From Lishizhenia tianjinensis (GTDB taxonomy: Bacteria > Bacteroidota > Bacteroidia > Flavobacteriales_D > Crocinitomicaceae): a DNA stretch of 64,000 bases. Of this stretch, positions 51,679-64,000 are shown in pieces. The translations under genes were made by a program, and so were the position numbers. Position 1 is the stretch's first letter. Every line of letters starts with the position of its first letter. Where the stretch lies: the NCBI GenBank assembly GCA_943330745.2, contig CALQIX020000003.1, positions 62,001 to 126,000 of the forward strand, written 5' to 3'. The notes beneath the pieces were generated by a model. That model saw nothing but the letters and a program-made list of their open reading frames with translations. It ran no database searches and had not been told where the DNA came from.

Positions 51679-52899
51679 ATGGGCAAAGCTAACATTGCAA
51701 TAATTGGTGGTGGTGCAGCCGGATTTTTTGCCGCTATTTCAGCCAAAAAGCATTTCCCAGATACAGAAGTGACACTTTATGAAAAATCGGATAAAGTACT
51801 TTCCAAAGTAAAAATATCAGGTGGCGGTAGGTGCAACGTAACCCATGCTTGTTTCGATAATAAACAATTGGCTGGTAAATATCCAAGGGGCGAAAACTAT
51901 TTACGAAAAGCCTTTGAACAGTTCAATGCACAAGATACTATTGACTGGTTCGAAAAACGAGGTGTTCAAATGAAAACTTATCCGGATGGGTGTATCTTCC
52001 CTGTTTCCAATGATTCTCAAACAATTATCGATTGTTTTTTGAAAGAAATAAAACAACTAGGAATTAAAATCAAATTAAAACAATCTATTACTAAAATATC
52101 GCCAACAGAAAACGGATTTGAACTACATACACGGGAAGAGAAATTTACTACCAATAAAGTAATCGTTACAACTGGCGGTCAACCGAAACGATCTGGCTTG
52201 GAATGGATTGAAAAATTAGGGCATACCATCATTGAACCGGTTCCGTCACTTTTCACCTTCAATATGCCGACAAATCCCATACGGGAATTAATGGGAAACG
52301 TAGTGGAAAAAGCTACCGTTAAAATTGAAGGAACAAAACTAATTGGCAAAGGACCTTTATTGGTAACGCATTGGGGAATGAGTGGTCCGGCAATTTTACT
52401 TTTATCTGCTTGGGGGGCGCGGATTCTTCAGGAAAAAAATTATCACTTTGCTATCCTCGTGAATTGGCTTGATGAAATGAAAGAAATAACCTTACGAGAA
52501 AAGTTGAATGATATTATTGAGGAGAATGGCGGAAAAATGATTGGTAATTTAAACCCATTTCCCGTTACCAATCGCATGTGGCACTTTCTGTTAGAAAAAT
52601 CAGAAATTAACCTCGAAACGCGCTGGAAAGACATAGGGAAAAAGAACACCAATAAACTAGTGAACACCTTGTTAAACGACAGATATGAAGTGAGCGGAAA
52701 AACTACCTTTAAAGAAGAATTTGTAACAGCTGGAGGAATCGCCTTATCAGAGATAGACTTCAAAACCATGGAAAGTAAAAAAGTACCCGGGTTGTTTTTT
52801 GCCGGTGAAATTTTAGATGTAGACGGAATCACCGGAGGGTTTAATTTTCAAGCGGCTTGGACCACGGGTTTTATAGCTGGCAAGCATATTGGAAAATAA
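51679..52899 (+). CDS. FAD-dependent oxidoreductase (HI0933/BaiN-like)
   Basis: 406 aa flavoprotein. N-terminal ADP-binding motif IAIIGGGAAGFFAAISA, then VLSKVKISGGGRCNVTHAC, VTTGGQP, and the C-terminal GLFFAGEILDVDGITGGFNFQAAWTTGFIAG, all hallmarks of the HI0933 family (also called aminoacetone-oxidase-like or BaiN). The substrate is not clear from the sequence. The start codon directly follows the lptD stop (TAAATG). Confidence 0.92.
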   Translation: MGKANIAIIGGGAAGFFAAISAKKHFPDTEVTLYEKSDKVLSKVKISGGGRCNVTHACFDNKQLAGKYPRGENYLRKAFEQFNAQDTIDWFEKRGVQMKTYPDGCIFPVSNDSQTIIDCFLKEIKQLGIKIKLKQSITKISPTENGFELHTREEKFTTNKVIVTTGGQPKRSGLEWIEKLGHTIIEPVPSLFTFNMPTNPIRELMGNVVEKATVKIEGTKLIGKGPLLVTHWGMSGPAILLLSAWGARILQEKNYHFAILVNWLDEMKEITLREKLNDIIEENGGKMIGNLNPFPVTNRMWHFLLEKSEINLETRWKDIGKKNTNKLVNTLLNDRYEVSGKTTFKEEFVTAGGIALSEIDFKTMESKKVPGLFFAGEILDVDGITGGFNFQAAWTTGFIAGKHIGK

Positions 52900-52907
52900 C
52901 GTAAATC

Positions 52908-53993
52908 CTATTCAAAATTAGAAGCATTCGGATTTAAATAATTCACTTGTTCCACAATCGATAACTTGTTGTAATTAGATGGAAAAAGAGCAAAAATTTC
53001 TTTAAATTGTAAGGAAAACACTCCCAATTGTTCTTTCTGCATCGCAGGATTTATCTGCAAAACATCGAGTAAGGTATGCAGTATCATTCGTTTTTCATAA
53101 AGCTGTGCGGCTTCCATGTGATTAACTGCAAAGTCCAAAAGCCACTCCCAATAAGGATGATTGAATCCACCTTGCATAAACAAATACAATAATCGATAGG
53201 CTAAATACCTGATTTTTGGATAAATATATAAGTCTTGTAATTCTTTGTCTGTCAAAGAAACATCTACATAAATTAAGTTACCCAATTCCAACACTTTGGA
53301 TTTATTTCTTTTGAGAAAATAATACCGTAACAACAACGAATTTGCGAAAATAAAATCTTGTAACGATTTATTTGATTCATGTGGTTTTACAGTTTCTAGA
53401 TAATAAAGTAGCCCTTTGTCGTAGTGTTGAATAGTAAAATCTGGATCTGCAAAATATTCATAGAATCCTTCTCTCACAATAGGCAAAGAATTAAACTGTT
53501 TGAAGAAAGGTAAATTTGGACTTGGATTTGTCTTTAATGAATAAAATAATTGCCTTCCTAAAAGTATTTTCTTTTCAAATGACAATTCCTGAGGAAACTG
53601 CTCGAAAAAATTATAAATGGGCTTTAAATTACCTGCATGAATAGAAAAAGTTAATAAACTTTGATAGTTTTTTTCATCCGAAAAGGCTCCGTATAAGGAT
53701 TGAAAATCAGATAAATCATAAAGCTCTTTTTCTAAATCAAACCAATACGTAAATCCTAAAAATTCAGCAAAAATATCTAAGGTATGGATATAGGGAACAT
53801 TCGTATTTTCATTCAATAAAAACATCCGATAAATCGTGCTTTCCGAAACAGATTTATTCGTTTCAAGAAAAATCAATTGGCTCAATTTCTTACAATCAAA
53901 TTTCGTCAGGATTTGATAGCTTAACTTGGTTTCAAGTTTGAACTTTAAATTATTGAGTAAAAAAAGACTTATTTTATATTTTGGTTTAGGCAT
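52908..53993 (-). CDS. HTH-like protein of unknown function
   Basis: 361 aa. Residues ~20-85 contain a Bacteroidota-type DNA-binding-like segment: LSYQILTKFDCKKLSQLIF, SVSESTIYRMF, HTLDIFAEFLGF, similar to the (S/T)xxTLRRF...LxxxxxYLGF pattern common in this phylum. The rest is helical, consistent with a tetratricopeptide-like repeat domain (many Tyr, Phe, Leu). No membrane segment. It is the last gene of the minus-strand series that contains the KAP/MORN genes, two bases after the DUF481-like gene; it could be a regulator of it. Confidence 0.6.
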   Translation of the reverse strand: MPKPKYKISLFLLNNLKFKLETKLSYQILTKFDCKKLSQLIFLETNKSVSESTIYRMFLLNENTNVPYIHTLDIFAEFLGFTYWFDLEKELYDLSDFQSLYGAFSDEKNYQSLLTFSIHAGNLKPIYNFFEQFPQELSFEKKILLGRQLFYSLKTNPSPNLPFFKQFNSLPIVREGFYEYFADPDFTIQHYDKGLLYYLETVKPHESNKSLQDFIFANSLLLRYYFLKRNKSKVLELGNLIYVDVSLTDKELQDLYIYPKIRYLAYRLLYLFMQGGFNHPYWEWLLDFAVNHMEAAQLYEKRMILHTLLDVLQINPAMQKEQLGVFSLQFKEIFALFPSNYNKLSIVEQVNYLNPNASNFE

Positions 53994-53995
53994 GA

Positions 53996-54787
53996 CTACA
54001 ATTTAATATTTATTCCTGTTGAAATTGAATAATAGTAGTTGTCAATTGGTAAAGGTCGATAAGAATCCAAATTATGGTCATAATGAATGGTAAATTCGAG
54101 GTGCTTGTTTACGGTAAAAAACAAATTTGAATCAAAGAACCAACGCGGCGTTGTAAAATGACTATTTAAAGGAAATTGAACAAAGGTTGCTCCAGCAAAA
54201 TCAATGTTTTTCGCAATTTTTAATGCGAATTTTGCTGTCAAATTCAACCGAAATAAATTGCGATTAACAATACTCAATCCACCAGAATTGAAGGCATAAG
54301 ATCCCAAAAACGGATTCCATTTTTCGGACTCATAGAAAACTCCTACTCCTGTATACAAATCTGATTTTCGTTTTTCTAACCAACGCATCCGTGCATTTAT
54401 TCCAAGCAATGATCTTCTTTCCATTCCTTGTACACCATTCCATTGATATTGAACGAACACATCGGGTGAAATTTTACGCGAGTCGTTGTCCCTAAATCGC
54501 AACTGAAAAAAACCATTGTTTTCGAGAGCCGTTAATCCATTAAACGATAATTCAGTTTTTGTTAGAAAGACAAACAAATACTTTTTCTTTAGGAAATAGT
54601 CAATTTCAGAAACATTTGCAAAATCCACCAAATTTTTCTTTTGTTTGTCGTTAGAAAACGTGAAGTTAAAATTGGCACGAACTCTGCGAAACGTTGTATC
54701 CGTTTCAATTTCTCGATCGATGTTCAGCACCTGTGAAAACAAGTTTCCCGCAAAAAACAAGCAAAGGATAAGAATAGTATTTTTCAT
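53996..54787 (-). CDS. DUF481 outer-membrane-like protein
   Basis: 263 aa from the ATG at 54787 (MKNTILILCLFFAGNLFSQ, a signal peptide); an ATG five codons earlier directly follows the previous stop. The body is a run of amphipathic strands (FLKKKYLFVFLTKTELSFNG, RRSLLGINARMRWLEKRKSDLYTGVGVFYESEKW) ending in TGINIKL, the layout of DUF481 beta barrels. It probably sits in the outer membrane. It lies between the HTH-like gene and the 72-aa membrane protein. Confidence 0.75.
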   Translation of the reverse strand: MKNTILILCLFFAGNLFSQVLNIDREIETDTTFRRVRANFNFTFSNDKQKKNLVDFANVSEIDYFLKKKYLFVFLTKTELSFNGLTALENNGFFQLRFRDNDSRKISPDVFVQYQWNGVQGMERRSLLGINARMRWLEKRKSDLYTGVGVFYESEKWNPFLGSYAFNSGGLSIVNRNLFRLNLTAKFALKIAKNIDFAGATFVQFPLNSHFTTPRWFFDSNLFFTVNKHLEFTIHYDHNLDSYRPLPIDNYYYSISTGINIKL

Positions 54788-54802
54788 TAGTGAACGTATC
54801 AT

Positions 54803-55021
54803 TTACCACACTTGGTACAACCAGCGGATAACCCACACCCAAAACGCTACTAAAATGGCAAGACCAATTATCAATGCCGCTCCCCCAACGATTTTAATCA
54901 ACTTGAATCCAAACGAATCTAAATCTCGGTTTAAGGTAGCATCGTGCTCGTAATTTTTATCTTCAATTTTTCTTCGAAAAAGCGATAAAATGGGGTTTTT
55001 GGTTTTTTTTTCGTTACTCAT
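54803..55021 (-). CDS. 72-aa membrane protein
   Basis: Charged N-terminal half (SNEKKTKNPILSLFRRKIED) and one membrane segment at residues ~42-66 (IKIVGGAALIIGLAILVAFWVWVI). It starts inside the end of the preceding gene (4-base ATGA overlap). No family recognised. Confidence 0.6.
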   Translation of the reverse strand: MSNEKKTKNPILSLFRRKIEDKNYEHDATLNRDLDSFGFKLIKIVGGAALIIGLAILVAFWVWVIRWLYQVW

Positions 55022-55407
55022 TTAATTAACGTAATTAATTTAATTTTAAATAGGGATGCAATAAAAGCTCCAATGGCTGTCTCTCCAAAAATTCTTCCTT
55101 TTATAGGATCAAGGTATTTTTCAGGTGGAGAAACAAAATAATAAACACTTTGTAATATGCTAAAAAATGAGGCTGTTCCACCCACGATAATCACGATCCA
55201 ATTCAACCAACTTAAATCAAACACTCCTTTAAAAAAACCTATTGTAATTATTGGAATTACCACACAATCAATCAATTGAAAAATCATGTTCATAAAAGCA
55301 TAATTGATGCGATAAACAGATATAACTTCATTTTTCTTTTCAATTGTTGAATCCATTTGCTTTGGCAATGGAATAATTTCATCTACTAATTCTCGAACCA
55401 GACCCAT
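55018..55407 (-). CDS. 129-aa membrane protein
   Basis: Start MGLVRELVDEIIPLPKQ at 55407; the longer frame to 55581 is not coding. Three membrane segments, residues ~36-56, ~65-85 and ~108-126. Its start overlaps the stop of the 104-aa gene as TAATG, the same coupling seen throughout this cluster. No family recognised. Confidence 0.6.
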   Translation of the reverse strand: MGLVRELVDEIIPLPKQMDSTIEKKNEVISVYRINYAFMNMIFQLIDCVVIPIITIGFFKGVFDLSWLNWIVIIVGGTASFFSILQSVYYFVSPPEKYLDPIKGRIFGETAIGAFIASLFKIKLITLIK

Positions 55408-55721
55408 TAGTTTCGTTTTAAAATGGTAAATAAAAGAATGAGTGCAGCAAGGGCATTGGCAATTAGTGACGTTATTCCGAAATAATACCAAAAGGAATCT
55501 ACAGATGGACTTGAAGTAAAATAAACGGCGCATCCCATGTACCCAAAAATGGCTATGCAAATGAGCGAAAGTAGTCCCCAACCAATTCCCGTCCCACCAT
55601 TGGATTTGGCGCGCATGGCCAGCGTACTAAAAATTAAACCAGCAAAAATGGATGAAATGAGGTATCCAAATATAATTAATAATGAGGTTTGAGATGTTCC
55701 GTTATCTTTTTTATTACTCAT
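55407..55721 (-). CDS. 104-aa membrane protein
   Basis: Three membrane segments at residues ~12-34, ~45-65 and ~75-98, ending in TILKRN. Gly/Asn-rich loop KSNGGTGIGWGLL. Its start is inside the microprotein's stop (ATGA overlap). No family recognised. Confidence 0.6.
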   Translation of the reverse strand: MSNKKDNGTSQTSLLIIFGYLISSIFAGLIFSTLAMRAKSNGGTGIGWGLLSLICIAIFGYMGCAVYFTSSPSVDSFWYYFGITSLIANALAALILLFTILKRN

Positions 55722-55888
55722 TTTCTACCGAATAAAAGTTTAAGGAACCAGCCACCAATTTTCCGTTCTGCGCCACCGCGTGTGGTTGGAATACCGGTTT
55801 TACGGGCAATGCTATTTCTGAAACCGGAAATGCCCAACAGCCTTTTCCAGGAGAATGAGAAGCCAAATTTATTTTTGAAACCGAACAT
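55718..55888 (-). CDS. SFSWKR microprotein, intact copy
   Basis: 56 aa: starts MFGFKNKFGFSFSWKRLLG, continues ISGFRNSIARKTGIPTTRGG, AERKIGGWFLKLLFGRK. It is the reference copy; the two others are the same first ~45 residues with a foreign C-terminus. A short basic protein; the S-F-S-W-K-R...TGIP...ERKIG pattern also occurs, as I recall, in small unannotated proteins of other bacteria. The start lies ten bases after the MORN1 stop and the stop overlaps the next start. Confidence 0.7.
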   Translation of the reverse strand: MFGFKNKFGFSFSWKRLLGISGFRNSIARKTGIPTTRGGAERKIGGWFLKLLFGRK

Positions 55889-55898
55889 AGCAAATGGG

Positions 55899-58469
55899 TT
55901 ATTTTATTTTAATAATAGTGATGGTTGATGTGCCCGCTTTACCGGATTTTACATCAGCATCCTTTTGCACAATATAATTTTTAGCTGAAGAATCAGATAA
56001 TGTCTGTCCTTCATGGCTTACACGAATTGTTCTCTGAATTAATTGGCCTTTTCCGTGCGTTTTTTCTGTTTTAGACATTCCCCCGTTTAACATAGCGTCA
56101 AAAAAACCACTTGCATAAGTTGTTTGATTTTTGTCCTCTTTAAGTTTAATGTTGTAAGTTATCTCAAAATACCTTGTCTTCGATTTTTCCTCGGCCTCTT
56201 GCTTGGACTTTCTTTCTTTCTCCTCGGCCTCTTCTACTTTCTTTTTTTCTTGTGCTTTTTTTCTCTCTAATTCATCAGCCTCTCTTTTCGCCTTTTCTTC
56301 ATTATGTCTAAGTTCTTCCTGCGCTCTCCTTGCTATTTCTTCACTATACCTTCTCTCATCTTCTTCTCTTTGTTTTTGTTCATTTTCTAACTGACGCTTA
56401 GTTTTTCCTAAAATCTTCCCATCTTTAAAACCTCCCTCATAACTATCACCACTCGCCCAAATATATTTCCCTGTACCATTCCAAGCTCCTTGACTATACT
56501 CACCTTCATAAGTATCTCCACCATCTAAAATCCAAAAGCCTTTTCCAGAAATAAATTCATCATTTTCCCAAGTTCCTTCTTTCTGCCAGATAGGTCCTGC
56601 TTTCCATTCTTCAGTAGGCCAGGATTGTTTCCCTTCTCCATGGCGTTTCCCTTTGATCCAATCACCCATATATCGTTGACCATTAGTCCATTTTTGTGTA
56701 CCTCTTCCATGTTTTTCTCCTTTTAAAAAATCACCTTCATATTTCTGTCCATCAGGACAAGTGTAGGTTCCTTTGCCACTCTTTTCTCCATCCTTAAACT
56801 CCCCGTCATATTTACATCCACTTTCAAAATATTCAATACTACCCTTGCCATGAAAAAATCCAATTATTTCACCATTATTTTTTTTATGTCCAACGAATTT
56901 ATATTGTGAGTTTTCTTCAATGATTGGTTTTGGAGCTTCATCAATTAGATTATCAAAAATGAGTTCACTATTTTGATTTTCAAATTTTCCATTTGTGAAT
57001 ACTCCAGAAATAATTAGAGTATCATTTTGATCGTAAAAACATCCTTCTCCACCTGGTTTAGGTGGCCAGCAGCACTCCTCAAAAGAACCTACATATTTAG
57101 TTTTGTCTGGATAAATTATTTGACCATCAGTGCAACTCCCCCCACAAAAAAATGTAGTAAGACAAGAGCTATCTCGAAAGAGATACGAGCCAAATTCGTA
57201 TATATTTTCCATCCCAACAAACTTACCTTCTTCAAAATGATCTTCTTTAAAATCATCACAAAAAAAGCATTCATCATATGAAAATACTAAAACTCCTTTT
57301 CCTTTTGGAAAACCATCTTCAACTTCACCATAATAAATAATTTCTTCAAACCCATCAGACATATTTAATTTTGGCAAATTAAGATTGATACTAAGGTCTA
57401 TTTCTTTTGGATTAAATTCGGAGCTTTCAAGAGATTTAATTTCTTCTGAAGTCATTTCCTTAATTTCATTTGTATTTTCTTCCCCGTAAAAAATAAGATC
57501 TTCTATTTTAAAATTAGCAGTTCCTTCCTCATTTTCCATGCTATCATTTAATACATAAACAATACTTTCAGCATTTTTTGGTATCCCATCACCTGCATAA
57601 AATACTTTAAATGAACTTCCTATAGATGCAATAGCACTATATATATATAAGAAATCCTGTTCCCGAATTTTGGTATTATTAATCATTTTCAATGCACGTT
57701 CACCAAAACTTGAATCACCAAGCTGTGTAATTGGAATCTTAACTTTATCTCCAACTTGAAATGTTCGGTTCAACAAAGGCACTTCAGAATCTGAAACATC
57801 TTTAATTTCCTCCACCCACTCTCCATCTTTCATCATTCCTTCTGAAATTTCTCCATCGTCATGAGTGATTTTTGCTTTTCCGTCTTTAAATTCTCCATGC
57901 ACCCAAGTTCCATCCTGAAAATCTCCATTTTCCCAAGTATAGATTCCCTTTCCGTTCAATTCCAACTCTTCATCAAAGGTTCCGCTAGCGGTATTTCCAT
58001 CCGACCAAGTTATTTTACCTTCATTTAGATTACCCTGCTCAAATATCCCTTCTTCAATTACTTTTACTCCGTCTTCATCAACATATTCTGCTTTTCCTGA
58101 AATAAATTCATCATTTTCCCACTCACCCTCGTATCGAATATTATCTTCATCCGTAAAAATATGATAACCATTCTTTGAATCGTTAGCTGGATTCTTATCT
58201 TCAACTAAAACAGCATTCCACTTTTGTTTTAATTCTCCCGGTTCAATTCCTTTTTTCCAGCGACCGTCGAAACCGGTTTCGTGAAAAGTAAGTTCCATTA
58301 ATCCTGTAACATTTACCTTTTTATTATGGAATATTGCCTTCAAGATATTTCCTTCCATTTTTCCTTCGACCGTTTCATGCCCATACTCGGAATAGATAAT
58401 TCCTGGCTCCTTTTCTTGAAATTTAACCTCTTGTTTTCCTGCTTTATAAACTGTATTTAACTTGATCAT
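55899..58469 (-). CDS. MORN-repeat protein 1 with C-terminal coiled coil
   Basis: 856 aa from the ATG at 58469 (MIKLNTVYKAGKQEVKFQEK), matching the start of its paralogue; the frame to 58499 begins at TTG. Residues ~1-85 are the shared N-terminal module (FHETGFDGRWKKGIEPGEL), ~95-235 MORN-type strands shared with MORN2, ~235-400 a unique insert, ~400-690 more MORN repeats (YEGDFLKGEKHGRGTQKWTNG). Residues ~690-770 are a highly charged coiled coil (REEDERRYSEEIARRAQEE), then a C-terminal beta domain of ~90 residues not seen in MORN2. No signal peptide or membrane segment. Confidence 0.8.
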   Translation of the reverse strand: MIKLNTVYKAGKQEVKFQEKEPGIIYSEYGHETVEGKMEGNILKAIFHNKKVNVTGLMELTFHETGFDGRWKKGIEPGELKQKWNAVLVEDKNPANDSKNGYHIFTDEDNIRYEGEWENDEFISGKAEYVDEDGVKVIEEGIFEQGNLNEGKITWSDGNTASGTFDEELELNGKGIYTWENGDFQDGTWVHGEFKDGKAKITHDDGEISEGMMKDGEWVEEIKDVSDSEVPLLNRTFQVGDKVKIPITQLGDSSFGERALKMINNTKIREQDFLYIYSAIASIGSSFKVFYAGDGIPKNAESIVYVLNDSMENEEGTANFKIEDLIFYGEENTNEIKEMTSEEIKSLESSEFNPKEIDLSINLNLPKLNMSDGFEEIIYYGEVEDGFPKGKGVLVFSYDECFFCDDFKEDHFEEGKFVGMENIYEFGSYLFRDSSCLTTFFCGGSCTDGQIIYPDKTKYVGSFEECCWPPKPGGEGCFYDQNDTLIISGVFTNGKFENQNSELIFDNLIDEAPKPIIEENSQYKFVGHKKNNGEIIGFFHGKGSIEYFESGCKYDGEFKDGEKSGKGTYTCPDGQKYEGDFLKGEKHGRGTQKWTNGQRYMGDWIKGKRHGEGKQSWPTEEWKAGPIWQKEGTWENDEFISGKGFWILDGGDTYEGEYSQGAWNGTGKYIWASGDSYEGGFKDGKILGKTKRQLENEQKQREEDERRYSEEIARRAQEELRHNEEKAKREADELERKKAQEKKKVEEAEEKERKSKQEAEEKSKTRYFEITYNIKLKEDKNQTTYASGFFDAMLNGGMSKTEKTHGKGQLIQRTIRVSHEGQTLSDSSAKNYIVQKDADVKSGKAGTSTITIIKIK

Positions 58470-58495
58470 ATTTAAAGTATTTGTGAAAATTAATT

Positions 58496-58780
58496 TCAAT
58501 TCGGTAAAAGTGTTTTTAAAATAATGTTTGCGTACTTCCCATTATTCACTCCTCTAACAGAGGCATATTTTGGATTATTCAATATGGGAGCTTTGGAACC
58601 ATTTGCTGCGCCTGATATGTGCGGAACCATAAGTAGCGAGCAGCCACTAATTTTTCGCTCTGCCCCACCGCGTGTGGTTGGAATACCGGTTTTACGGGCA
58701 ATGCTATTTCTGAAACCGGAAATACCCAATAGCCTTTTCCAGGAGAATGAGAAGCCAAATTTATTTTTGAAGCCGAACAT
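58496..58780 (-). CDS. Chimeric SFSWKR microprotein, copy 2
   Basis: 94 aa. Residues 1-47 equal the intact microprotein (MFGFKNKFGFSFSWKRLL...AERKI); the remaining ~47 (SGCSLLMVPHISGAANGSK, then NNPKYASVRGVNNGKYAN) equal the C-terminus of the UDG-like protein at the window's right end. The junction is at GAAAAAT-T-AGTGGCTG on the minus strand. The start overlaps the MORN2 stop as TAATG. Its own product may be functionless. Confidence 0.65.
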   Translation of the reverse strand: MFGFKNKFGFSFSWKRLLGISGFRNSIARKTGIPTTRGGAERKISGCSLLMVPHISGAANGSKAPILNNPKYASVRGVNNGKYANIILKTLLPN

Positions 58781-60963
58781 TAGTTTTTTATGTGTTTTAA
58801 TAAAGAAACATCGTAATACTCTGAAGTTGGTTTCCCGCGATAAACATAAATACATTTTGCGCTACTTCCGTTAATGCTTTCAATAGTCATATTTAAATCT
58901 CCAGACTTTAATGAAACAAGATCTCCGAAAGAGAATGTTAAAACTCCAATGTTCCATTTACCTTCTATTATTTCTCCGTTAGGCTTAGTCAATTTACCCC
59001 ATCCATTGAGCTTTCCATTTAAAAATTCCCCACAGTATTCACCATCATTATTATTATAATAAATGCCTTGACCTGTTTTTTTTCCAAATTTAACTTGACC
59101 TTCATATATATTTCCGCTTTTAAATGTCTTTCGAATAGAACCAGTATAAAATTCAAAATTGTCTTCACCTTCAACCCATTCTCCATATTCATAATCGCCA
59201 TTTTGATAACTTAATTTTCCTTCATGAAAACCAAAATTGTCAAAGTCAAATGTTCCCTCAAATTTTCTTCCATCTGAATAATTAATTATAACTTCCTTAA
59301 AATCATTATTCCTATCTGTTGGATTAATAAAAACTACTTCTTCCCAACGACCATCCAATATTCCGCCAGAATAAATGGTTTTTTCTCTCACCAATGAGTC
59401 ATTTGAATAATCTGAAATATAAATTGTTTTGTCACCATTTTCTTTCAACCAAACAACTTCTTTCTGAATTATTTTTTTATCATCATTATACCTATATAAA
59501 CGAGTCCATTTATTAATTTCTCCTTTTGAATTGATGTCCTCTTCCTCTTTTTTTGTTAAAATATCATTTTCATAATAAAATAAAGTTGTGCTTATTTGTT
59601 CTTGATCCCAGATATCTTTTGATGTAATTATTTGCTTTTTTATAAGGCTATTTTCCAAAAATGAAATAGAAATTTCATTATCTTCACTAGTTATTTTCTT
59701 TTCTCCATTTATGAATTCATCATCTTTCCAAATCCCCTTTTTATAGTCTCCATTGCTATAATTTTTTATCCCTTCTCCATTAAAATCTCCATCAACAAAA
59801 CCCCCTTCATAGTAATCCCGATTTGCCCAGGTATATCTTCCATTTCCATGACGAATCCCGTTTAAAGATTGTCCTTCATAAATATCACCGCTTTCATACG
59901 TTTTCTTTATCACTCCCTCAATTAATTCATCATCTTTCCAAATCCCTTTTTTGTAGTCTCCATTGCTATAATTTTTTATCCCTTCTCCATTAAAATCTCC
60001 ATCAACAAAATCCCCTTCATAGTAATCACCATTTGCCCAAGTATATTTTCCTATACCATGCCGAATAGAATTTAAAAAATCACCTTCGTATATAGAGCCA
60101 CTTTCATAATTCTCTATACCATTAGTGATAATGTTAACAATCTCTTCTTCCTCTCCCACCCATTCACCATCTTTCATCATTCCTTCCGAAATTTCTCCAT
60201 CGTCATGAGTGACTTTTGCTTTTCCATCTTTAAATTCTCCATGCACCCATGTTCCATCCTGAAAATCTCCATTGGACCAAGTATAGATTCCCTTTCCGTT
60301 CAATTCCAACTCTTCATCAAATACGCCACTCGCACAATTTCCGTCTGCCCAAGTTATTTTTCCTTCTTTTAAGACACTATGTTCAAAATTACCTTCTTCA
60401 ATAACTTTCTCTCCATCTTCATCAAGATAGGTTTGTTTTCCTTGGCCGTGTAATACTCCTTCTTCATCAAAAGTTCCTTCCTCTATCGTACCATTTTCGT
60501 AGGTGATTTTACCTGAAGTGATGATAAGATCCTTAAATTCACCTTCTTCAATTACTTTTTCTCCGTCTTCATCAACATATTCTGCTTTTCCTGAAATAAA
60601 TTCATCATTTTCCCACTCACCCTCGTATCGAATATTATCCTCATCCGTGAACACATGATAACCATTTTTTGACTCGTTAGTTGGATTCTTATCTTCAACT
60701 AAAACAGCATTCCACTTTTGTTTTAATTCTCCCGGTTCTATGCCTTTTTTCCAGCGACCTTCGAAACCAGTTTCGTGAAAAGTAAGTTCCATAATTCCAG
60801 TAACATTTACCTTTTTATTATGGAATATTCCCTTCAAGGTATTTCCTTCCATTTTACCTTCAACCGTTTCATCTCCATACTCGGCATAAACCAAACCTGG
60901 CTCCTTTTCTTGAAATTTAACCTCTTGTTTTCCGGCTTTATAAACTGTATTTAACTTGATCAT
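58780..60963 (-). CDS. MORN-repeat protein 2
   Basis: 727 aa. The same N-terminal module as MORN1 (residues ~1-85), followed by MORN-type strand pairs with the YxGxxxxGxxHGxGxYxWxxG pattern. Residues ~280-420 hold a tandem 70-residue duplication (KGIWKDDELIEG / KGIWKDDEFINGEKK). The C-terminal part ends in a short SH3-like strand set, FGDLVSLKSGDLNMTIESIN, SAKCIYVYRGKP. No signal peptide or membrane segment, so cytoplasmic. It is flanked by the two chimeric microproteins. Confidence 0.8.
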   Translation of the reverse strand: MIKLNTVYKAGKQEVKFQEKEPGLVYAEYGDETVEGKMEGNTLKGIFHNKKVNVTGIMELTFHETGFEGRWKKGIEPGELKQKWNAVLVEDKNPTNESKNGYHVFTDEDNIRYEGEWENDEFISGKAEYVDEDGEKVIEEGEFKDLIITSGKITYENGTIEEGTFDEEGVLHGQGKQTYLDEDGEKVIEEGNFEHSVLKEGKITWADGNCASGVFDEELELNGKGIYTWSNGDFQDGTWVHGEFKDGKAKVTHDDGEISEGMMKDGEWVGEEEEIVNIITNGIENYESGSIYEGDFLNSIRHGIGKYTWANGDYYEGDFVDGDFNGEGIKNYSNGDYKKGIWKDDELIEGVIKKTYESGDIYEGQSLNGIRHGNGRYTWANRDYYEGGFVDGDFNGEGIKNYSNGDYKKGIWKDDEFINGEKKITSEDNEISISFLENSLIKKQIITSKDIWDQEQISTTLFYYENDILTKKEEEDINSKGEINKWTRLYRYNDDKKIIQKEVVWLKENGDKTIYISDYSNDSLVREKTIYSGGILDGRWEEVVFINPTDRNNDFKEVIINYSDGRKFEGTFDFDNFGFHEGKLSYQNGDYEYGEWVEGEDNFEFYTGSIRKTFKSGNIYEGQVKFGKKTGQGIYYNNNDGEYCGEFLNGKLNGWGKLTKPNGEIIEGKWNIGVLTFSFGDLVSLKSGDLNMTIESINGSSAKCIYVYRGKPTSEYYDVSLLKHIKN
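59716..60135 (-). repeat. Tandem 210-base duplication inside MORN2
   Basis: Two successive units of 210 bases (start points 59716 and 59926), the second slightly diverged, encode 70 residues each of MORN repeats. Confidence 0.8.
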
Positions 60964-61010
60964 ATTTTAAGTATTTGTGAAAATTAATTTCAACTCGGTA
61001 AAAGTGTTTT

Positions 61011-61274
61011 TCAAATAAAGGTTGCGTACTTACCATTATTCACTTCTGAAACAGAGGCATATTTTGGATTATTCAATATTGGAGCTTTGTAACCATTTTC
61101 GGCACCAGAAATTTGTGTAACCAAAAGTAGCGAGCAGCCACTTATTTTTCGCTCTGCCTCACAGCGTAGGGTTGGAATACCCGTTTTCCGGGCAATGCTA
61201 TTTCTGAAACCGGAAATACCCAATAGCCTTTTCCAGGAAAATGAGAAACCAAATTTATTTTTGAAACCGAACAT
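61011..61274 (-). CDS. Chimeric SFSWKR microprotein, copy 3
   Basis: 87 aa, same design as copy 2 but more diverged: GIPTLRCEAERKI, then SGCSLLLVTQISGAENG and a truncated YATFI end caused by base changes near the stop. The start overlaps the KAP NTPase stop as TAATG. MORN2 follows after 47 bases. Confidence 0.6.
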   Translation of the reverse strand: MFGFKNKFGFSFSWKRLLGISGFRNSIARKTGIPTLRCEAERKISGCSLLLVTQISGAENGYKAPILNNPKYASVSEVNNGKYATFI

Positions 61275-63037
61275 TAACTGATTTGTTTTTCTGATAAATT
61301 ATTGAAAGCTAATTTTAACTTTTCAGTTATATCATTTGTAAACTCTAATGAGGTTTTAATTGGAATAGTTTGTGCAGAAAACTCCAATTGAACACCATTC
61401 TTTTTGAATCGAACAAATAGAAATGTTTTACTTCTGCCTTTTGGAAATTTACATGCAAATGTTATGAAATTTGGCGTGTAGTTAATCTGAATTAAATCAG
61501 AAAACAGTTTTTCAATAGTATCATGAATGGTTTTTAACGTAGAAATATATTCATCTGAAAATTTATTTCTTTTCAGAATTTCTCCTAAAGCCGCGAAACC
61601 TTCAAATCGAATTTTATCTCCTTTGGAAATTGATTTTGGAATAGGGTCTAAATTAACACTGGTTACAGCACTAAAACCTATTATTCTCGATATTTCCTCG
61701 GTTAAATTCAAATTATCGGGAACCAATTCAATAACATAATTCATTAATTGTGAAATCTGAAATGATCGTGAAGCCATGTATGGATCTTCCTGACATTTGC
61801 GAAAAAGCACTTTCTCCCATTCTTCATCAAATTCATGCGTACTATTAAGTACTACAAGTTGGGCTTCGGTTAGGTCAGAAAGACGAAGTTTCTTTGCCGT
61901 CTGTTCATTCCACTCCCTAAAGGAAGGCTCTTGTGTAAGTAATTCATAGATTTTTGGATAGGCAATTTGAATGCAAACAAGTGAGTAGTTGATTAATAAT
62001 TCGTGAATTTCTTGGCTTGTATTATTATCTATTTTACCAATAATATTTAAAAGTGACAAGGTATTAATCAATCGTTTTAGTGATCTTGGATTAGTACCAA
62101 CGGAAAGTAACGTTAAATCAGACAATTTTTCCTTTAGCGACTCACTTGTCAAAAACCGCTCGTCAATATATCCAATATCTTCTAAAGAGTGAATCAAAAA
62201 TTTAGATACATCATAGTTCGAAATAGGCATTGAAAATGGTAGTTGAATGATCTTATCAAAAAACGATCGAAATTCCCTTTCATTTTTCTCTGTCAATGGA
62301 CCAAATTTTGGAACTAGTCCCTTCACCACTACTTCATAGTCAATAGCCAAAATAAACAAACAGTTTTCAACTTCAAAGATATTTTTAACCAATTCTAGAA
62401 TTTCCACTGCAACAGGAGGATCTATCCGATCGAGGTCATCAATAAAGAAAATAAATCCTCGGTTATTATTGCCATTTTTACGGTCTTCTTCCAAACATTC
62501 ATTAATAGCATCTTGCAATGCCTGCTTAAATTGCAATAGATTTGTTTCTCCTTCTTCACTTTCCAAAAAGGAATCGACAACATCACCGTCTACCCCAACA
62601 GTACTTGCTGCTACTTTAGCACCTGCTTTGCCAAGTTTCGAAAATAAACTTTTGACTTTACTTATCGTTGCTTTCGCTTTAGTTTCATGCTTTGACTTGA
62701 TTATTGATAAAATCTCATGAGTTAAACCTCCAATGATAGAAGTTAATGCCTCGTCTTTTTCTTTCATCAATGAGTATTGCCAGGTATTTACCCAGATACC
62801 ATAAAACGGCATTTCGTTGTTGCGCTCATTTGAATTCAAGGGAGATTCGCACAGTCTATGTCTTATTTGATTTAAAAGCGATGTTTTCCCACTACCCCAT
62901 TCCCCTTGTATAGCAAGAGTTGTAGGCATTTGACATGTATTGATAAACTGAATAAGTGCATCTGAGTATTTATCTACGCCCAGTAAATCTTCAGCACCTT
63001 CTTTACGAGGTTTGTCAATGATATTTGATGTTTTCAT
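61274..63037 (-). CDS. KAP family P-loop NTPase
   Basis: 587 aa. Walker A at residues ~46-53 (GEWGSGKT), Walker B near residue 207 (FIFFIDDLDRIDPP), sensor-like NPRSLKRLINTLSLL near residue 345: the KAP P-loop pattern (Kidins220/ARMS/PifA). Between them lies a ~50-residue insert (SKVKSLFSKLGKAGAKVAASTVG) where other KAP proteins have membrane helices; here it is amphipathic but not strongly hydrophobic. KAP NTPases include phage-exclusion PifA, so a conflict role is possible but inferred. The gene starts 8 bases after the UDG-like stop and shares its stop with the microprotein start. Confidence 0.88.
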   Translation of the reverse strand: MKTSNIIDKPRKEGAEDLLGVDKYSDALIQFINTCQMPTTLAIQGEWGSGKTSLLNQIRHRLCESPLNSNERNNEMPFYGIWVNTWQYSLMKEKDEALTSIIGGLTHEILSIIKSKHETKAKATISKVKSLFSKLGKAGAKVAASTVGVDGDVVDSFLESEEGETNLLQFKQALQDAINECLEEDRKNGNNNRGFIFFIDDLDRIDPPVAVEILELVKNIFEVENCLFILAIDYEVVVKGLVPKFGPLTEKNEREFRSFFDKIIQLPFSMPISNYDVSKFLIHSLEDIGYIDERFLTSESLKEKLSDLTLLSVGTNPRSLKRLINTLSLLNIIGKIDNNTSQEIHELLINYSLVCIQIAYPKIYELLTQEPSFREWNEQTAKKLRLSDLTEAQLVVLNSTHEFDEEWEKVLFRKCQEDPYMASRSFQISQLMNYVIELVPDNLNLTEEISRIIGFSAVTSVNLDPIPKSISKGDKIRFEGFAALGEILKRNKFSDEYISTLKTIHDTIEKLFSDLIQINYTPNFITFACKFPKGRSKTFLFVRFKKNGVQLEFSAQTIPIKTSLEFTNDITEKLKLAFNNLSEKQIS

Positions 63038-63045
63038 ATTTTTTT

Positions 63046-64000
63046 TTATTGTATTATTTCACTTAAAATAATGTTTGCGTACTTACCATTATTCACTTCT
63101 GTAACAGAGGCATATTTTGGATTATTCAATATGGGAGCTTTGGAACCATTTGCGGCGCCGGATATGTGCGGAACCATTACTAAGGAGCAGCCATTTTCGA
63201 GGTTCGTTTTGAAGATTTCGTTGTTCCAGGTGGGCGGATAAATTTTATACAATTGACATATTGCATCCCTTGCTCCATTTCCTAAGGTTAGTATAGCAGC
63301 TGGGTTGACTACATTTATTTCTGATTCCAAAATTTCTCGATGAATGGCTAAGTCGGTATACGCCTTAGTCTTATTACTAATTTTGTTACCTTCCCGATAA
63401 AAAATCTTGTAAATATCTGTCAAATAGAGGTCAAAATCTTTTAAAAGTGAATAGAAGAACTGCAAATTTTCTTTCTCAGAATATTTATTTTCCTTGGAAG
63501 GGTTCTTAATTACACTAAAAGGCACCCAATCTGTTAGTTTGTCTTCCGGCAATTTTTGTTCGTTATCAGTACGCAATGGATCCATCGCGCAAATCATTAA
63601 CACAGGTCGATCTTTTCCTTTACTTAATTTTATGGGAAAATCAATTCCTATTGAGCGAACGTTTAACTCTTTCACAAAAGAAAAATCATTCACTAAATCA
63701 AACTTATACAATTGATAATCCAATTCTTCAGGTCTTTCAACCGAAAGATCGTATTGCTCGTTGAAATACGCATCAAATGCTTGATAGATCACATCGATTC
63801 CATAACTTGGGTTAACCACTTTTGATTTAAGCAATTCTTTAATTTCGGTAGGAATACTAATCTTTATTGGGCTTTCTTGCAGAATCTCGCCATTCCATTT
63901 TCCATTCAATGGACCCTGTTCTATTCCTTTTTTCCATTTTCCAACAAAACCTGTTTCATGAAAAGTTAATTCCATTATACCTGAAACATTCACTTTGGGA
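63046..64000 (-). CDS. UDG-fold-like protein with shared N-terminal module (5' part beyond window)
   Basis: The frame is open to the right edge, with codons for PKVNVSGIMELTFHETGF just inside it, so the true start is outside. The N-terminal ~30 visible residues repeat the shared module of the MORN proteins. The rest resembles the uracil-DNA glycosylase fold: LMICAMDPLRTD in the position of motif 1, VNPAAILTLGNGARDAI in the core, and VPHISGAANG near the C-terminus in the position of motif 2. The usual catalytic Asp/His residues are not in their standard form. DNA-repair, nucleotide-sensing or a different activity are all open. Confidence 0.6.
   Translation of the reverse strand, partial: PKVNVSGIMELTFHETGFVGKWKKGIEQGPLNGKWNGEILQESPIKISIPTEIKELLKSKVVNPSYGIDVIYQAFDAYFNEQYDLSVERPEELDYQLYKFDLVNDFSFVKELNVRSIGIDFPIKLSKGKDRPVLMICAMDPLRTDNEQKLPEDKLTDWVPFSVIKNPSKENKYSEKENLQFFYSLLKDFDLYLTDIYKIFYREGNKISNKTKAYTDLAIHREILESEINVVNPAAILTLGNGARDAICQLYKIYPPTWNNEIFKTNLENGCSLVMVPHISGAANGSKAPILNNPKYASVTEVNNGKYANIILSEIIQ

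Follow-up and report, generated by a model that had tools for sequence, protein, structure and literature searches.

A recurrent candidate conflict operon of Bacteroidota that links a uracil-DNA glycosylase-like protein to a KAP NTPase and small membrane proteins

Near the right end of the window, the 64,000-nucleotide stretch of DNA analyzed here (C3:62001-126000, where C3 is contig CALQIX020000003.1 of Lishizhenia tianjinensis, 144,258 bp long, from a 3.06-Mb genome that is 99.9% complete), lies an operon that brings together a protein with a putative uracil-DNA glycosylase (UDG) fold, a KAP-family P-loop NTPase, a basic microprotein (m), three small proteins with predicted transmembrane (TM) segments (TM104, TM129, and TM72), a DUF481 outer membrane protein (OMP), and a probable regulator (HTH361). 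Comparison with other Bacteroidota shows that the UDG-like protein, m, and the three TM proteins form a core that recurs across families, usually with the KAP NTPase and often with the OMP and the regulator. The accessory modules change: MORN-repeat proteins with an N-terminal domain, A, in the window; and A-domain/DUF4116 proteins, TerB domains, the OmpA-anchored p210, and the small proteins sp126 and sp155 elsewhere. The names m, TM104, sp126, p210, and A are labels coined in this analysis. Our tentative preference is for a conflict system that is associated with the envelope and was acquired horizontally, with antiphage defense as its most likely role, although we place this reading slightly short of an even chance.

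Recurrence of the gene set

When 95 nonredundant KAP loci are compared, with partners counted within 10 kb, the KAPs that share the conserved C-terminal tail of the window protein stand apart in the company they keep: UDG, OMP, and TM72 each accompany them in 10/16 loci, whereas among KAPs without the tail UDG is present in 1/79 loci, OMP in 7/79, and the TM genes in 0/79. Some of the profiles behind these counts were built from the same KAP loci; in nine tail-bearing loci outside the profiles (L114, L116-L121, L123, L161), UDG is seen in 4/9 and TM72 in 5/9. Approached from the UDG side, a profile search of a 395-genome sample of the class (E ≤ 1e-15) recovered 10 genomes, and in 10/10 of them system genes lie beside the UDG gene, namely, the KAP/TM set in six, the m/TM set in two, and A-domain genes in two. 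Five of the 10 were outside the profile, and these too adjoin system genes in every case (5/5). An order-level search with the single UDG protein found system genes nearby in five of the seven genomes with hits to the UDG body. We estimate the probability of such a neighborhood arising by chance in a 3-Mb genome at under 1% per gene.

KAP, m, UDG, and OMP also stand side by side in a second genus, represented by G118 (sp126-p210-KAP-m-UDG-OMP) and G061 (channel-C15-sp126-TerB/KAPtail-m-TM104-TM129-TM72-KAP-m-UDG-OMP). In other families, KAP, UDG, the TM set, and OMP occur together in G350 (HTH361-sp126-sp126-x-KAP-[61-residue antisense open reading frame in the place of m]-TM104-TM129-TM72-UDG-OMP), G382 (sp126-p210-UDG-x-KAP-x-m-TM104-TM129-TM72-OMP), G451 (HTH361-sp126-sp155-m-TM104-TM129-TM72-UDG-KAP-OMP), and the loci L116-L118 and L121; G502 follows the order of G451 as far as its sequence, spread over two contigs, reaches. 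Shorter arrangements are found in G153 (sp155-m-TM104-TM129-TM72-OMP-HTH361, without KAP), G621 (UDG-x-m-TM104-TM72), and G258 (UDG-(m)-TM104-TM129-TM72). Conserved gene order in other Bacteroidota, which the initial annotation of this region had proposed as a check, is seen for KAP, UDG, and the microprotein. The homologues of TM104, TM129, and TM72 retain invariant residues. A role of TM104 as a holin was rejected, the match to the LydA holin model being weak (0.0014, below the cutoff) and confined to 1/10 homologues. The OMP was ruled out as a system-specific marker because most of its same-genus homologues stand alone.

The UDG-like protein and the KAP NTPase

The UDG-like protein (A-UDG, 366 residues; 63046-64146 on the minus strand, as are all features of the window given below) joins an N-terminal A domain of ~90 residues to a UDG-superfamily domain, and its start codon lies at C3:126146, 146 bases beyond the window. 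Its match to PF03167 is subthreshold (2.1e-4, 21.8 bits; cutoff, 24.3), a second member of the family scoring 22.8 bits. The top Foldseek matches of its AlphaFold model are all UDGs, with probabilities of 0.97 to 1.00 for the best ten, and the structures retrieved are those of UdgX, family-4 UDG, MUG, TDG, and SMUG1; the low TM-scores (0.29 to 0.47) reflect the moderate quality of the model. Although UdgX and the family-4 UDGs are the best matches of the model, the NCBIfam models for family-4 UDG and UdgX give 12.2 and 10.9 bits, far under their cutoffs of 125 and 190. A sequence profile of the family retrieves the S. tokodaii UDG at an E value of 0.0095. Asp189 in “MD(P)” and His327 in “H.S” are invariant in 10 UDG sequences, and Ser329 is nearly so. 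We take this Asp and His to sit at the places of the superfamily's two catalytic motifs, motif 1 presumably being MD(P) in this clade as against the GE.PG type of the UdgX and family-4 enzymes. The protein is likely the DNA-acting part of the system, with a putative activity.

The KAP NTPase (587 residues; 61274-63037) matches PF07693 at 3.4e-40 (138.6 bits; cutoff, 20), and its conserved C-terminal tail covers about residues 460 to 587. Many KAPs, Tmn among them, have been described as carrying TM segments within the NTPase domain; in the window protein none is predicted, the maximum 19-residue hydropathy being 1.53 against a threshold of 1.6. Its best matches in PADLOC (2023 release), PifA (2.9e-29) and the candidate PDC-S20, denote family kinship only; the PifA alignment is confined to the KAP domain (residues 6 to 329 against positions 6 to 315 of the 720 in the model), and the NCBIfam QatA model scores 74.7 bits against a cutoff of 600. 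A sequence search for solved structures found no relative of the KAP. In the KAP tree, the partners of UDG fall in two separate clades, ~35% identical, in which the same m/TM partners are kept. At L048:7747-8526, the KAP C-terminal tail is found in another copy, joined to a TerB domain, which suggests that this tail may be an interaction module. TerB domains recur among the KAP partners, in G061 (where TerB and the KAP tail are fused), G382, and G079.

Operon layout and the tandem array

The operon comprises 16 codirectional genes that run from 52908 to ~3.6 kb past the right end of the window with intergenic gaps of -4 to 68 bp; the open reading frames (ORFs) were called mechanically, and the counts of TM segments come from hydropathy only. 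The order is ion channel, C15-like peptidase, 82-residue ORF, ATP-grasp peptide ligase, A-UDG, KAP, mT1, A-MORN (727 residues), mT2, A-MORN (856 residues), m, TM104, TM129, TM72, OMP, and HTH361. The initial annotation had seen the middle seven genes, from A-UDG to m, as a minus-strand series that encodes one UDG-like protein, one KAP NTPase, a pair of MORN proteins, and a microprotein in three copies. All seven are real and are spaced -1 to 47 bp apart, but the operon extends on both sides of them, and the three small TM proteins, the DUF481 OMP, the probable regulator, the ion channel, the C15-like peptidase, and the ATP-grasp ligase had escaped notice. The remaining start of the operon, expected to the right of the window, was found there.

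The tandem repetition noted at the outset takes the form of three blocks recurring at a spacing of 2494 bp, among them a 256-nucleotide block (three copies, 71 to 92% identity) and a 140-nucleotide block (three copies, 89 to 95% identity). The DNA common to the UDG gene and both MORN genes, described before as shared parts, can now be specified as A-domain DNA (three copies), m DNA (three copies), and the last ~131 nucleotides of the UDG gene (three copies). The A-domain block (family D1) lies at 60708-60963, 58214-58469, and, as the start of A-UDG, 63891-64146; the UDG 3′-end block (family D5) lies at 63063-63193, with relics at 61010-61140 and 58516-58646. Neither m nor the A domain occurs anywhere else in the window genome. 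Of the three microproteins, all of which are present, only the copy at 55718 (m, 56 residues; 55718-55888) is free-standing; mT1 (87 residues; 61011-61274) and mT2 (about 94 residues; 58496-58780) are chimeras in which m continues in frame into the terminal ~47 codons of the UDG gene. The UDG part is degraded in mT1, and the joint falls at a short common stretch, AAAAT..GGCTG. As G061 and G118 keep the KAP-m-UDG order intact, the simplest history is that an m-UDG unit was duplicated and that a deletion then removed the DNA between the end of m and the end of UDG, which would make mT1 and mT2 relics of such duplications. The loss of the HIS motif and an early stop indicate that mT1 is decaying. 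More broadly, comparison shows the local array to be the probable product of repeated duplications of two kinds of cassette, m-UDG and A-domain, in which UDG copies were lost by deletion of the DNA from m to the 3′ end of the gene.

Between the window copy of m and those in other genomes, the proportion of synonymous differences (pS) is 0.68 to 0.90 and thus saturated, whereas that of nonsynonymous differences (pN) is 0.11 to 0.25, indicating purifying selection at the protein level and hence that m is a real gene and no chance ORF. The protein, which is conserved across families, is strongly basic (13 K/R against one D/E) and keeps the motif SFS.KR..GI......A.KTGIPTT..G.ERK.G; it is also found near the KAP genes of gut Bacteroidales.

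The A domain (~90 residues) is the N-terminal part common to the UDG-like and both MORN proteins. It precedes UDG, MORN, DUF4116, and other bodies and is predicted to be a small all-beta barrel of eight strands; a likeness to avidin- or fatty-acid-binding folds (best match, bradavidin2; TM-score, 0.63; E value, 0.27) is not claimed for it. It is fused to UDG in the window genome and G040, and A-domain genes adjoin UDG in G213, G440, and G396. Both MORN proteins (727 residues at 58780-60963; 856 residues at 55899-58469, with a C-terminal charged coiled stretch) match PF02493 at 1.7e-23. Their standing as core partners, proposed initially, was not upheld: a pattern search that recovers the window proteins found no other MORN protein in the 95 KAP loci. 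Relatives with A-domain/MORN and A-domain/DUF4116 architectures lie mainly beside a UDG gene (G213, G440, G396, and, as a fusion, G040), with a single case next to KAP (G021). The MORN proteins are accessory. In G213 (L050:2282-13270), the genes after UDG encode, in order, A-DUF4116, leucine-rich-repeat, A-DUF4116, A-MORN, and leucine-rich-repeat proteins, one shared N-terminal domain fronting an array of varied repeat types. In G040 (L054:6004-10516), two genes of the ion-channel family found in the window operon, with products 37 to 38% identical to its channel, stand in tandem after the A-UDG fusion, with no KAP nearby.

Downstream of m lie TM104 (55407-55721) and TM129 (55018-55407), each with three predicted TM segments, and TM72 (54803-55021), with one. 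They are followed by the OMP (53996-54802), which has an N-terminal hydrophobic segment and is of the outer-membrane type (PF04338/DUF481, 21.9 bits against a cutoff of 21.1), and by HTH361 (52908-53993), whose helix-turn-helix is deduced from sequence only and which recurs beside the system. Just past the right edge of the window and immediately upstream of A-UDG, with 32 bp between them, lies an ATP-grasp ligase (328 residues) related to graspetide maturases; it overlaps the 82-residue ORF, a possible precursor peptide (L007:179-1410). Farther upstream, the ion channel gene (523 residues, PF00520) overlaps a pyroglutamyl-peptidase-like gene (189 residues, Peptidase_C15; L007:1479-3616), and neighboring channel/C15 pairs are seen again close to KAP in G061 and in several gut Bacteroidales loci (L132, L135, L182). 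No structured RNA was found in 52000-64000, and no tRNA insertion site was found.

Other associations were seen near these families. In two unrelated genomes (L061:10167-12302 and L238:6148-9744), UDG homologues adjoin large proteins that look secreted and carry beta-propeller-like repeats of the 'GDGCLLKSTDNGSTW' type. The sp155/sp126 family lies near KAP in about 42 loci (L113-L191 and relatives), often in several copies (e.g., L153:9361-9663), and is fused in L135 to p210, a TM-OmpA protein (L135:646-1962). A coiled-coil protein of ~80 residues is found near KAP in 19 loci. A kinase family belongs to the same company, and its member in L151 has BspA-type leucine-rich repeats. Together, sp155/sp126, the coiled-coil protein, and the kinase appear to make up another KAP-linked system of gut Bacteroidales, larger than the present one and likewise undescribed.

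Horizontal transfer and genomic context

The KAP of the window genome is 82%, 82%, and 81% identical to those of G061, G118, and G350, of which the first two belong to the same family and the third to another, whereas the corresponding PheT identities are 62%, 62%, and 49%. This excess of KAP over PheT identity points to horizontal transfer, and the operon as a whole looks horizontally acquired. KAP is present in 15/249 genomes of the order (E ≤ 1e-50). In G635, the closest relative found, the flanking proteins are 97 to 99% identical; HTH361 and OMP are kept at one end of the island (OMP, 98% over 49 residues), and at the other end, beside pirin, a zinc-finger gene, whose homologue in G079 has a TerB-like domain, occupies the position of the channel gene. 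No clean empty site was found: the left flanking gene has other neighbors elsewhere, and the contigs of G635 break inside the island. At a threshold of 1e-30, about 9 to 12 per 100 flanking proteins match PADLOC models against 2 to 3 per 100 in controls, the samples being small and taxonomically unmatched.

Discussion

As the initial annotation had supposed, no described system with this gene set was found in Pfam, NCBIfam, PADLOC 2023, PHROGs, or open-access papers, subscription papers lying outside the search. Nor did the open-access literature yield a description of a KAP with UDG, MORN, TerB, or Bacteroidota operons. What appears to be new is the set of genes, not a proven function. The partner set of QatABCD differs from UDG, m, the TM trio, and OMP; among the operon proteins scanned, which represent only some of the operon genes, QatB, QatC, and QatD had no match, and the sole Qat model matched was QatA. 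The KAP P-loop domain of the window protein is common to PifA of the F plasmid, QatA, and the defense protein Tmn, which has two TM domains (PMC11846954) where the window KAP has none. On the glycosylase side, Brig1 is a proven anti-T4 defense enzyme of the UDG superfamily whose best structural match is the S. tokodaii UDG (PMC11078745), and Brig3 is another UDG-superfamily defense (PMC13160076). This S. tokodaii enzyme, a family-4 UDG (4ZBY), is among the top matches of the window protein too, the likeness being one of fold; turning a repair fold to defense would be a further parallel. Brig1 and Brig3 excise modified bases of T-even phage DNA, and each protects as a single gene (PMC11078745, PMC13160076), whereas the UDG-like protein described here comes linked with small membrane proteins and, in many cases, with an NTPase. 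NTPase-centered conflict systems (PMC7159879) likewise combine an NTPase with exchangeable modules, and a DNA-glycosylase domain is mentioned there as a rare effector; that paper describes no KAP, MORN, TerB, or uracil-glycosylase system, and the present core adds the microprotein and three small TM proteins.

Defense is our best guess because of the transfer, the exchange of modules, the precedents for both enzyme families, and the excess of PADLOC neighbors. The TM trio and m would tether the complex to the inner membrane, the KAP would act as an NTP-driven switch, and the A-domain/repeat proteins would serve as exchangeable recognition arms. Once activated, the UDG-like protein might excise or bind a noncanonical base of the invading DNA in the manner of Brig1 and Brig3; alternatively, the membrane part might harm the infected cell. 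The idea of a multicomponent set at the membrane that pairs a KAP with a UDG-fold protein and duplicates its repeat-protein modules is supported, the membrane link resting on the three small TM proteins and the OMP and not, as first suggested, on lipid binding by MORN repeats; the earlier assignment to a defense or conflict locus is plausible, if unproven. A broader proposal, possible but at present doubtful, is that of an undescribed envelope-anchored class of immune systems of Bacteroidota in which the UDG glycosylase is the constant effector, held by m and the three TM proteins, and the activator, whether KAP or A-domain repeat proteins, is exchanged.

Several observations weigh against the defense reading. 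The AlphaFold model of the UDG-like protein is of moderate confidence (pLDDT, 56; pTM, 0.64), and no component of the operon qualifies as a member of a known defense system. Carriage by phages or plasmids was not detected: no relatives were found of KAP, UDG, TM104, or m in IMG/VR, of KAP or UDG in PLSDB, or of KAP in INPHARED. The excess of PADLOC neighbors is modest, drawn from two samples of different taxa, and counted among the 25 families listed. No system genes were seen near the weaker UDG homologues of G050 and G155. In many relatives the OMP family is also found by itself, and no KAP is visible in G621 or G258, so that this component is not obligatory.

The most serious rival, although unlikely in our judgment, is an envelope or DNA damage stress response in the style of the TerB systems and without a phage target, in which KAP and the membrane parts would sense envelope damage and the UDG-like protein would protect or repair DNA. 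The recurrence of TerB domains among the KAP partners (G061, G382, G079) would fit such a role, and the OMP, the OmpA domain of p210, the ion channel, and the C15-like protein all point to the envelope; yet the sporadic distribution (15/249 for KAP), the horizontal transfer, and the turnover of accessory genes do not resemble a housekeeping stress response. The structural envelope function raised initially as the alternative likewise stays in contention. Improbable is a device for DNA uptake or traffic at the envelope, in which the OMP, the membrane trio, and KAP would handle incoming DNA that the UDG-like protein checks: one operon does combine outer and inner membrane proteins with a DNA-glycosylase fold, but the UDG-bearing loci yielded no recognizable gene for a nuclease, a ComEC-like channel, or a pilus, and the OMP is often missing beside UDG (G621, G258, G440). 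We hold it decidedly improbable that the 82-residue ORF and the MvdD-like ATP-grasp ligase mark a cluster for graspetide production or self-protection whose membrane proteins export the product or confer immunity. The ligase scores 183 bits against TIGR04187, and an ATP-grasp relative of the same family lies near KAP in an uncultured Prevotella (L139:7864-8862), but the score is under the curated cutoff of 350, the ORF has no family match, ATP-grasp genes occur in only 2/95 KAP loci, a scarcity which suggests that the core can work without them, and no peptidase-containing exporter was recognized. That there is no single system, unrelated genes in a variable island having gained the look of a unit through local duplication, is very unlikely: OMP, KAP, m, and sp126/sp155 are each found without the others in some genomes and the array of the window holds deletion relics, but the co-occurrence is repeated across gene orders and KAP clades, the UDG homologues outside the profile adjoin system genes without exception, and the genes are spaced as in an operon.

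If the core is one machine, a DNA base excision fold would be joined to the cell envelope, an arrangement for which we found no described precedent, and m and three membrane protein families without an accepted match in the family libraries searched would gain a function. Even if it does not act in defense, the set is still a conserved system that moves horizontally and involves both the envelope and DNA. If the favored reading as a conflict system holds, glycosylase-based immunity would reach beyond the single-gene Brig enzymes, and the Bacteroidota would offer a concrete, testable gene set in which to study it.

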